Positions 16,833 through 25,229 of a stretch of 64,000 nucleotides of DNA are shown piece by piece. Each line of letters starts with the position of its first letter. Within the stretch, counting starts at the first letter, position 1. The notes under the pieces were generated by a model that worked only from the letters and a program-made list of their open reading frames with translations, was not told the DNA's origin and ran no database searches. Source of the stretch: Thermoplasmata archaeon (GTDB lineage: Archaea; Thermoplasmatota; Thermoplasmata; Lutacidiplasmatales; UBA184). A program made the translations under genes and the position numbers. The stretch covers positions 1-64,000 of the forward strand of contig JAKIWG010000008.1 of the NCBI GenBank assembly GCA_022750155.1, read 5' to 3'.

Positions 16833-18476
16833 TCAACGGAGCCCCACGACGCGTCCGTCCTCGGTGAGGTCGATGGATTCCGCGAGCGGATGGGCCGGGA
16901 GGCCCGGCATGGTGTTGATCGTGCCCAGCCGGACGACCCAGAATCCGGCCCCTGCGCTCCACTCCACGCGATCGACCCGGATCCGGAATTCTTTGGGACG
17001 TCCCCGGCGGGTCGGGTCATCGCTCAGGGACAGCGGGGTCTTTGCCATGCAGACCGAGGCGGAGGGGTCGCCACGGGCCGCGAGCTCCTCGAGATTTGTT
17101 CGCGCAGCCGGGGTGAACTCCGCACCGAGCGCCCCGTAGAGCGTCGTCGCGATCCGTTCGACCTTCCGTTCGAGCGGGTCCGTCGGTGAATAGATCGGGC
17201 GGGCCGTGGGGGGGTCGTTCGACGTCAATTCGACCCTTCGGGCGAGCGCCTCCGCCCCGCTCCCACCGTCCCGGAAGCCGGTCGTCTCCGCCCAGGGGAT
17301 GGAGCGGGCATCCAGGTAGGCGGTGACAATGGCGATCTCCTCGTCGCTGTCATCAGGGAACCGGTTGATGGCTACGACGACTGCCAGGTGGAGGGCGGAG
17401 AGATTCGCGAGGTGCTGCTCCAGGTTCGGCAGGCCCAACCCCACGGCGCCCGGATCCGGCCGGTCGAGCACCTCGCGCGCAGCGCCTCCGTGGTGCCGGA
17501 GCGCACGCACGCTCGCGACCAGCACGGCCACATTGGGCTGGAACCCGCACATTGGTCCGACGAGGTCGACGAATTTTTCTGCCCCGAGCTCGCTCGAGAA
17601 GCCGGCCTCCACGACACTGTACTCTGCGGTCGCCAGCCCTAGTTCGATGGCGAGCCGGCTCGCGGTGCCGTGGGCGATGTTGGCGAACGGTCCCCCGTGG
17701 ATCAGGGCCGGGCCGCCCTCGGCCGTGGTCACGAGGTTGGGGGCGAGGGCTTGTCGGAGCAGCACCGCCATCGACCCGGCGGCACCCACCTGCCGGGCCG
17801 TGACCGGTTCGCCACGGACGTCGAGCGCCACGACGATCCGGCCCAGACGGGCCTTGAGGTCGACGTAGTCCCGCGAGAGACCCAGGACGGCCATGACCTC
17901 GGAAGCCGCGGTGATGACATAGCGCGAGGGCCGGCTCGGCGGCTCGCCGGGCTTGCCGGAACTCACTCGGATCGACCGCAGCGACCGGTCCTCCACATCG
18001 ACCGCGCGCGGCCAGAGGATCCGCTCGGGGTCGATCTCCCGCGCGTTTCCATGGAACAGGTGATTGTCGATCATCGCCGACAGCAGATTGTGGGCGGCCC
18101 CGACGGCCTCAATGTCACCATTGAGACCGAGGTTGATGGTGGCGTACGGCTCGACCGTGGCTCGCCCACCTCCGGCCGCTCCACCTTTGACCCCGAACAC
18201 GGGTCCAAGCGATGGTTGTCGAAGGATCACCACCGAGCGGCGCCCAATGCGGCGCAGGCCCATCGCGAGACCGATGGCCACGACGGTCTTTCCCTCCCCG
18301 AAGGGGGTCGGGTTCATCGCCGTGACGAGAACGAGCCGGCCCCGCTGGGCCGAATTGTCGGTCCGAGACCGTACGACGGAGACCGGGACCTTCAAGACTC
18401 CGGGAACGGAGGCCAGGATCTCGGCAGGGTCCAAACCCAGTTCGACGGCGGCTGAGTGGACGGAAAGCTCGGTCAT
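16833..18476 (-). CDS. fhs: Formate--tetrahydrofolate ligase
   Basis: The 547-residue product makes 10-formyl-tetrahydrofolate from formate, THF and ATP. The P-loop TPFGEGKTVVAIGLAMGL, the preceding LVLVTAMNP strand and the GGAAGGGRATVEP region are characteristic, and the length is close to the family norm of about 555. The ATG at 18476 matches the usual start; an upstream ATG at 18494 would add six residues. It stands alone on this strand, but a FolD-like enzyme is encoded about 5.5 kb away, so THF-linked one-carbon metabolism is present. That FolD has altered catalytic positions, which bears on how 10-formyl-THF is reduced here. Confidence 0.95.
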   Translation of the reverse strand: MTELSVHSAAVELGLDPAEILASVPGVLKVPVSVVRSRTDNSAQRGRLVLVTAMNPTPFGEGKTVVAIGLAMGLRRIGRRSVVILRQPSLGPVFGVKGGAAGGGRATVEPYATINLGLNGDIEAVGAAHNLLSAMIDNHLFHGNAREIDPERILWPRAVDVEDRSLRSIRVSSGKPGEPPSRPSRYVITAASEVMAVLGLSRDYVDLKARLGRIVVALDVRGEPVTARQVGAAGSMAVLLRQALAPNLVTTAEGGPALIHGGPFANIAHGTASRLAIELGLATAEYSVVEAGFSSELGAEKFVDLVGPMCGFQPNVAVLVASVRALRHHGGAAREVLDRPDPGAVGLGLPNLEQHLANLSALHLAVVVAINRFPDDSDEEIAIVTAYLDARSIPWAETTGFRDGGSGAEALARRVELTSNDPPTARPIYSPTDPLERKVERIATTLYGALGAEFTPAARTNLEELAARGDPSASVCMAKTPLSLSDDPTRRGRPKEFRIRVDRVEWSAGAGFWVVRLGTINTMPGLPAHPLAESIDLTEDGRVVGLR

Positions 18477-18494
18477 CCGAGGTGACCGAGGCAA

Positions 18495-23943: not shown

Positions 23944-24843
23944 GTGACCTCCACCCGGAGCCTCGACGGGCGCCCCGTCGCACAAGCGCTGCTATCGGAC
24001 GCTCGCAAACGGTCGGACGAAGGGGCCCGGTTGGGCCGACGACGGCCGTCGCTGGTCAGCGTCCATCGCGCGGTCGCCTCTCCGTTCGCCTTCTACCTCC
24101 GCCGGCAGGCCCATAACGCCGAGCAGGCCGGGGTGACGTTCCACGACGAGCCCCTCGCCGATGGCGCCTCGGCGTCCACCGTACGCCACCGACTCGGGTC
24201 GTTGAACGCCGATGGTTCGGTAGACGCCGTGCTCCTGGAGCATCCTCTGCCCGAGGCGCTTGACTTCCGAGCGGCGGTGCGGGCGCTGCGGCCCGAGAAG
24301 GACGTCGACGGGGTCTCCACCGAGAACCTCGGCCACCTCGTCCAGGGAGCCCCGGTTCAGGCTCCGGCGGTCGCTCTCGGAGCGCTCGCGATGATCCATT
24401 TCCATCAAGTTCCCATCGTGGGGCGTCGCGTCGCCGTGATCGGCCGATCGGACACCGTGGGACTTCCCCTCGCGTTGCTCCTCCTCGCGAGGAACGAAGG
24501 GGCGAACGCGACGGTGACGGTCGTGCACTCGAGGTCGGGGGGCCTCGCAAAGGCCCTCGCATCGGCCGAAGTGGTGGTCAGTTGCGTCGGGCACCCCGGA
24601 CTGCTGACCCGGGCCGTCGTCCCCGAGGGCGCCGCCGTGATCGACGTCGGACTGAGCTCGGTCCCCGACCCGAGTCGCCCGGGAGGGCAGCGGGCCGCCG
24701 GCGATGCCGACGCGACCTCGCTCGAGGGGTGGGCCTCCGCGCTCACCCCGGTCCCCGGCGGGACCGGACCGGTCACCGTCGCGCAACTGATGGCGAACAC
24801 CGTCCACGCGTGGGAGCTCCTGGGGCGAGGCGAGCCCTCATGA
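23944..24843 (+). CDS. folD: FolD-like methylenetetrahydrofolate dehydrogenase with altered cyclohydrolase site
   Basis: The 299-residue product belongs to the FolD family, which interconverts 5,10-methylene-, 5,10-methenyl- and 10-formyl-THF. Conserved are KDVDGV with Asp122, the dinucleotide loop IGRSDTVGLP, VVHSRSGG, SCVGHPG, VIDVGLS, and the C-terminal TPVPGGTGPVTVAQL. Aligned by eye to E. coli FolD, the catalytic Lys of YVxxK is Gln55 (YLRRQ) and the Gln of VQLPLP is Glu99 (LLEHPLP). Known mutation of this Lys to Gln in the human enzyme removes cyclohydrolase but not dehydrogenase activity. The PCTP motif is also changed (QAPAV). The GTG at 23944 fits a TATA-like GGTTATCTAT about 25 bases upstream. 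It overlaps the next gene (ATGA). Confidence 0.88.
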   Translation: MTSTRSLDGRPVAQALLSDARKRSDEGARLGRRRPSLVSVHRAVASPFAFYLRRQAHNAEQAGVTFHDEPLADGASASTVRHRLGSLNADGSVDAVLLEHPLPEALDFRAAVRALRPEKDVDGVSTENLGHLVQGAPVQAPAVALGALAMIHFHQVPIVGRRVAVIGRSDTVGLPLALLLLARNEGANATVTVVHSRSGGLAKALASAEVVVSCVGHPGLLTRAVVPEGAAVIDVGLSSVPDPSRPGGQRAAGDADATSLEGWASALTPVPGGTGPVTVAQLMANTVHAWELLGRGEPS

Positions 24844-25229
24844 CCGAACCCGTGGAACCGGTCCCGACTGTCCCGATGGAAGCGTCTCCGACGTCCCCCA
24901 CCAAGCGCGAGCCGCTCCGCTGCCGGGACTGCCCGATGTGGTACGGAGCCGAGGACGACGGGTGGGGTCCGTGCTCGATCAAGCACCGGCGCGGCGACGA
25001 CCGGTACCTGACCTTCGGAGGGCACGCCTGCGACGAGGGCTACGTGCCCCCGCCGCCGCCTCCGTCCGCCGGGAATGCCGCGGAGTTGAGCGGCGCCCGC
25101 TCGACTTCCAAGGCATCGGCGGTCGGATACTCCTCGACCTCCCAGGCCGGAAAACGGAGCCTGCCGGCCACGCGGCGCAGAGGCTCGGCGCCCAGTTCCA
25201 CCCGCCGTCGAGCGAAGTCCACCCGATAG
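24840..25229 (+). CDS. Small four-cysteine protein coupled to FolD
   Basis: The product has 129 residues. Residues 26-68 form the recognisable part: LRCRDCPMWYG (C28, C31), GWGPCSIKH (C45) and FGGHACDEGY (C64), likely one metal site. From residue 69 on it is Pro-, Ser- and Arg-rich, and this section is antisense to the 3' end of the convergent radical SAM gene, so the true stop may have been lost and read-through residues added. The ATG overlaps the folD stop. No function is recognised; a metal-binding partner of FolD or of the radical SAM protein is a guess. Confidence 0.6.
   Translation: MTEPVEPVPTVPMEASPTSPTKREPLRCRDCPMWYGAEDDGWGPCSIKHRRGDDRYLTFGGHACDEGYVPPPPPPSAGNAAELSGARSTSKASAVGYSSTSQAGKRSLPATRRRGSAPSSTRRRAKSTR

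Follow-up and report, generated by a model that had tools for sequence, protein, structure and literature searches.

A FolD lacking the catalytic lysine across an order of Thermoplasmata: a predicted methylene-tetrahydrofolate dehydrogenase whose cyclohydrolase step may be carried out by an FTCD domain

Bifunctional FolD proteins, such as E. coli FolD, the DC domain of human MTHFD1 and MTHFD2, combine the dehydrogenation of methylene-tetrahydrofolate (methylene-H4F) with the cyclohydrolysis of methenyl-H4F. In the human enzyme, the change of Lys56 to Gln reportedly abolishes the cyclohydrolase. The two activities are said to be divided in Clostridium perfringens, where FolD is described as a dehydrogenase only that works beside a separate FchA cyclohydrolase and Fhs, an observation credited to Aluri et al. 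2016. That paper (Microbiology 162:145) is reference 20 of PMC7219735. In Pseudomonas FolD, the lysine has been described as the general acid/base and a glutamine as its positioner (PMC3338484). Mutants of the E. coli enzyme have been assayed: K54N retains about 19% of the dehydrogenase activity and no measurable cyclohydrolase, deletion of K54-R55 also leaves cyclohydrolase undetectable, and Q98H retains about 1% of the cyclohydrolase and about 8% of the dehydrogenase (PMC5688156).

How does the FolD of an archaeal locus compare with these enzymes? The window, which is the whole stretch of DNA analysed here (64,000 nucleotides from a Thermoplasmata archaeon whose genome is called G000 below), contains the following features.

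23944-24843, plus strand: folD, a complete open reading frame of 299 residues with a GTG start; predicted 5,10-methylene-H4F dehydrogenase without cyclohydrolase activity
24106-24108, plus strand: codon CAG for Gln55, at the position of the catalytic Lys54 (E. coli) or Lys56 (human)
24238-24240, plus strand: codon GAG for Glu99, which aligns with Gln98 (E. coli) or Gln100 (human)
24307-24309, plus strand: codon GAC for Asp122, the pterin-binding Asp (E. coli Asp121), which is kept
24840-25229, plus strand: small cysteine-rich open reading frame; its ATG start shares bases with the stop codon of folD (ATGA); spacing C-x2-C-x13-C-x18-C
16833-18494, minus strand: fhs, encoding formate-tetrahydrofolate ligase, which makes 10-formyl-H4F from formate; Pfam FTHFS, 638.7 bits

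The window protein belongs to the FolD family. Both Pfam domains are found in order and above their gathering scores (THF_DHG_CYH, 59.8 against 32.8 bits; THF_DHG_CYH_C, 152.8 against 27 bits). Its AlphaFold model, built from a 35-sequence alignment, has a mean pLDDT of 93.6 and matches FolD/MTHFD structures in Foldseek with a TM of about 0.9 and E values down to 2.7e-28. The best NCBIfam match scores 206.6 bits, below the 438-bit cut-off of the bifunctional FolD equivalog. Like the bifunctional enzymes, the protein has the two-domain fold, the active-site Tyr and Asp and the NADP motifs; unlike them, it has Gln for the catalytic Lys, Glu for the Gln that positions this Lys, and further changes on the folate side. 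The alignment with solved FolD/MTHFD chains runs without gaps through the catalytic helix, where Tyr51 (TAC) is kept and the YxxxK motif reads Y51-x3-Q55. This alignment and the codons confirm every residue named in the earlier note, namely Gln55 for Lys54, Glu99 for Gln98, and the retention of the Asp and of the NAD(P) motifs. E. coli numbering, used below for comparisons, follows a reference sequence whose Y50, K54, Q98 and D121 agree with PMC3338484 and PMC5688156. The FolD of Thermoplasma acidophilum (PDB 3ngl/3ngx), from the same phylum, also has Glu98 (in the 3ngl sequence), and several of its relatives carry fchA beside fhs; unlike the window protein, it keeps Lys54 and was deposited as bifunctional.

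The earlier note had treated the changed FolD as a local oddity, a view that does not hold: the change extends through the whole clade and is seen again in other lineages. The family to which the window belongs is, as counted here, the order of UBA184, the soil archaea Ca. Lutacidiplasmatales, in which UBA184 has been placed (PMC9287336). The nearest named relatives of the window FolD come from Thermoplasmata archaeon MAGs including UBA184 and from isolates AcS/SubAcS, records that appear to stem from the study of PMC9287336. Of the FolDs from this family, 39 were scored, and every one has Gln at position 54. The same residue is present in 35 of 35 UBA184-type loci that were retrieved separately under that name, from genomes that partly overlap with the family set. 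Position 98 is Glu in 35 of the 39 and Gln in the other four; Y50 (with one F) and D121 are conserved. Since Gln98 is kept in four members and Lys54 in none, Lys54 probably changed to Gln before Gln98 changed to Glu in this family, which is the simplest sequence of events. Folate-side changes in the UBA184-type loci are mostly S47F, F123V, H124G, T142V and P143A, and the Rossmann/NADP motifs are kept despite them. FolD proteins of this group share about 50-63% identity, and within the group folD has a dN of 0.31-0.41 against a dS of 0.86-1.22, which indicates purifying selection. A sequencing error or a pseudogene is ruled out by the fixation of the substitutions in the family together with the low dN.

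Given the mutant data from E. coli and the mechanism described for Pseudomonas, loss of the cyclohydrolase is the expected effect of these substitutions and the dehydrogenase is expected to stay. For the window protein, loss of the cyclohydrolase is likely, a prediction held with high confidence and well supported by analogy with K54N. Retention, in part or in full, of dehydrogenase activity on H4F is likely too, with only slightly less confidence, and the enzyme would presumably prefer NADP. Residue logic and the published mutants K54N and Q98H thus give good support to the earlier prediction of a dehydrogenase-only FolD.

Which protein would then convert methenyl-H4F to 10-formyl-H4F? The earlier note had anticipated a separate cyclohydrolase, to be sought in the genome as FchA or a second FolD. 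A whole-genome search of G000 found a single FolD match, and a second FolD as the replacement was rejected. The search found one FTCD_C/FchA-family (PF04961) domain above the cut-off (G000:C34:17790-18278), which makes a candidate for the anticipated enzyme with its conserved residues intact. This domain is the C-terminal part of a fusion with glutamate formiminotransferase:

G000:C34:17727-19232, minus strand: fused FTCD of 501 residues, with FTCD_N, FTCD and FTCD_C all above cut-off

The fused protein aligns nearly full length to FTCD (PDB 1tt9, residues 1-506), and its C-terminal domain aligns to PDB 7vg4 and 1o5h. In the window's family, FTCD_C keeps nearly all of the strongly conserved residues (PGGG, D, P, D, N, N). 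However, when it is compared with known FTCD (1tt9) and FchA (7vg4/7vg5), the C-terminal domain of the G000 protein is divergent, and its 61.4 bits against the NCBIfam FchA equivalog NF045657 are far below the cut-off of 275 bits. It may function like FchA though it is not classed as FchA. Because it is divergent and fused to a formiminotransferase, the protein may instead be a cyclodeaminase only. G000 encodes a urocanase as well, so histidine breakdown alone could account for the FTCD, which may serve that pathway in addition or solely. That the FTCD is a working cyclohydrolase in this genome is plausible, with the balance tipped slightly in its favour. A RibD C-terminal-domain reductase gene (L039:5057-5716, minus strand) immediately adjoins the FTCD gene and probably belongs to archaeal riboflavin synthesis.

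The reading favoured here, which we consider reasonably probable, is that the window FolD is an NADP-linked methylene-H4F dehydrogenase without cyclohydrolase, and that the missing step is taken by the FTCD domain. With Gln55 in place of the general acid/base Lys and Glu99 in place of its positioner, the methenyl-H4F cyclohydrolase step would be lost from FolD, and methenyl-H4F would most likely reach 10-formyl-H4F through the FTCD_C domain of the fusion. This step would join the methylene- and methenyl-H4F pool to the 10-formyl-H4F that Fhs produces and PurH/PurN consume, and the same fused protein would also yield methenyl-H4F from the breakdown of histidine.

The distribution of the two families across Thermoplasmatota is consistent with such an arrangement. 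FolD was scored at positions 50, 54, 98 and 121 in about 200 Thermoplasmatota genomes, of which 171 listed as at least 90% complete were used for co-occurrence, with FolD called altered when K54 or Q98 was changed. FTCD_C is present in 65 of 68 genomes with an altered FolD and in 57 of 103 with a canonical one. At the family level it is found in 11 of 11 altered against 14 of 25 canonical families (Fisher p 0.015, with related genomes taken as independent). As FTCD_C also co-occurs with canonical FolD, its presence would permit the loss but not force it. The three altered-FolD genomes of at least 90% completeness in which FTCD_C is absent are G208, from the window's own family, G146 and G212. 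A search for the whole FTCD protein in these three and in incomplete relatives found none, and they stay as exceptions or gaps; an assembly gap is likely for G212, which also lacks the Fhs whose gene adjoins fchA in its relatives. G065, in which FTCD_C gave no match, carries a tandem folD pair at L133 (G065:C57:31000-34000), one copy with I54 and one with canonical K54/Q98. The idea that Fhs marks the loss was rejected, since 150 of 170 genomes have Fhs, by inspection regardless of whether FolD is canonical or altered.

Has Lys54 been lost more than once? Parsimony on the FolD trees gives 11-12 changes at this position, a count that depends on weak branches, and points to several losses. In the FastTree phylogeny the window FolD groups with bacterial FolDs that lack the lysine, with moderate support and long branches. 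A mixture-model tree brings together only some of the lysine-less FolDs, and its deep branching is weakly supported. Tree-based independent-pair tests yielded too few supported pairs, and relatives share ancestry.

A similar association is seen in bacteria. The bacterial loci were picked by similarity to the window FolD, and one search peptide began at Gln55, so that their rates are not those of bacteria at large: eight lacked Lys54, one had Lys54 with Glu98 and 34 were canonical. FTCD_C immediately precedes folD in three lysine-less loci (L276, L282 and L310); in L289 it is located about 0.5 kb upstream of folD, and in L290 about 1.3 kb downstream; near folD in the canonical bacterial loci, none was found. 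Genome-wide, the domain is present in 9 of 9 altered genomes against 1 of the 21 canonical ones searched (Fisher p 7e-7, kinship ignored, in a small non-random sample). In two of the nine altered genomes the FTCD_C frames are 564 and 580 residues long, a length that by itself suggests a fusion there; the confirmed fusion is that of G000. The pairing of a lysine-less FolD with a separate FTCD_C-family protein resembles a lasting split of the two activities, of a kind reportedly already known in bacteria.

The neighbours of fhs follow the state of FolD. In this comparison "non-canonical" means any change at position 50, 54, 98 or 121, which is wider than the K54/Q98 definition, and genomes of the same family are not independent. 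In 24 genomes no more than 160 bases separate the matches to fchA (FTCD_C) and fhs, and FolD is non-canonical in all 23 of these that were scored, with Glu98, with Arg54 and Glu121, or with Glu121 with or without Phe50. Conversely, folD itself is close to fhs in 12 genomes, and FolD is canonical in 11 of 11 scored; one of these is G152, a genome with 8% contamination in which a second, altered FolD occurs. An FTCD gene beside fhs was not found in the window's family. Another kind of altered site occurs in f25 and f39 genomes (e.g., L227 and L164), in which Lys54 and Gln98 are intact and Asp121 is replaced by Glu, together with Tyr50 by Phe in f25; fchA adjoins fhs in several of them.

The strongest alternative is a split one-carbon pool, in which FolD has the dehydrogenase activity alone and methenyl-H4F is not linked to 10-formyl-H4F by any enzyme. 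Fhs and formate would supply the 10-formyl-H4F for purines, while serine, glycine and histidine would feed a methylene/methenyl pool balanced by FolD; the FTCD would act as a cyclodeaminase only and slow spontaneous hydrolysis would cover the remainder. Fhs is encoded in the window, the urocanase and the fused FTCD point to histidine breakdown, and histidine degradation has been reported for the order (PMC9287336). Carolacton-resistant K54 mutants of E. coli survive without cyclohydrolase, for which spontaneous hydrolysis was invoked, but E. coli without cyclohydrolase grows slowly (PMC5688156). The case of G208, a 93% complete member of the window's family in which a lysine-less FolD and Fhs are present and FTCD_C was not found, also fits a split pool. 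However, in many other lineages fchA adjoins fhs or lies near folD, as would be expected if an enzymatic link is kept, and Fhs, which is common with or without an altered FolD, does not by itself track the loss. On balance, a split pool is unlikely, but it deserves more weight than any other alternative.

Could the window FolD still be bifunctional, with Gln55, Glu99 and the other pocket changes bringing in a different acid/base group? A modelling study of MTHFD2 left the role of the lysine as a base unsettled (PMC9173628), and several pocket residues have changed together, which could be compensation. By contrast, neither K54N nor the K54-R55 deletion leaves detectable cyclohydrolase in E. 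coli (PMC5688156). Across the sample, position 54 is found as R, N, V, M or I and position 98 as E, D, H, N or M, with 121 sometimes changed, a drift more suggestive of relaxed constraint than of one new mechanism. Continued bifunctionality would also leave the correlation with FTCD_C without a reason and is improbable. Least probable of all is a dehydrogenase redirected to another pterin or C1 carrier in the manner of MtdA or MtdB: the changes at S47, F123, H124, T142 and P143 across the genus, with NADP motifs kept, leave some room for the other pterin that the earlier note had raised, but D121 and Y50 are unchanged, G000 gives no FolD match besides this one, the H4F enzymes identified by family in G000 include PurH, a Formyl_trans_N protein and Fhs besides the FTCD, and no match to an H4MPT-type cyclohydrolase (MCH) was found there. 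MTHFR gave a sub-threshold match in the same genome (G000:C43:151341-151622, 21.1 against 24 bits).

For the preferred reading, in which FTCD takes over from FolD, the combination of a monofunctional FolD with FchA is reportedly familiar from bacteria; the present analysis adds an archaeal case that spans a clade and in which a fused FTCD is the sole candidate, and the pattern of residues and gene neighbours across the phylum. C. perfringens reportedly has a standalone FchA, whereas in G000 the one FchA-family domain that the search found is fused to a formiminotransferase. A broader proposal is tentative, with chances somewhat short of even: FTCD may now be the general methenyl-H4F cyclohydrolase in this order of archaea and in certain lineages elsewhere, freeing FolD of its second activity, and the state of K54 and Q98 could then predict when FTCD_C acts as a cyclohydrolase. 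The routine annotation of FolD genes as bifunctional carries into models of archaeal one-carbon metabolism. Residues 54, 98 and 121, together with the neighbour of fhs, split the scored genomes into those with a bifunctional FolD and those with a changed-site FolD and an FchA-family domain. If assays agree, a simple residue check could sort genomes, and the cyclohydrolase role of fused FTCD enzymes becomes directly testable.

The small cysteine-rich reading frame directly 3' of folD is found at this place in 29 of 30 related loci. It is HiPIP-like, with 20.0 bits just under the 22-bit Pfam cut-off, and its product is a possible redox or metal-binding partner of FolD; it is outside the core claim on FolD.

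The antibacterial carolacton binds E. coli FolD at the same lysine (PMC5688156), and natural FolDs that lack Lys54 may, by analogy, not bind it. Natural FolDs with E121, H98 or an N54/N98 pair are encoded at L051 and L052 (f9), L046 and L044 (f11) and the f15 loci L058, L190 and L185; N54 and H98 in natural FolDs are the same changes as K54N and Q98H, which confer carolacton resistance in E. coli.
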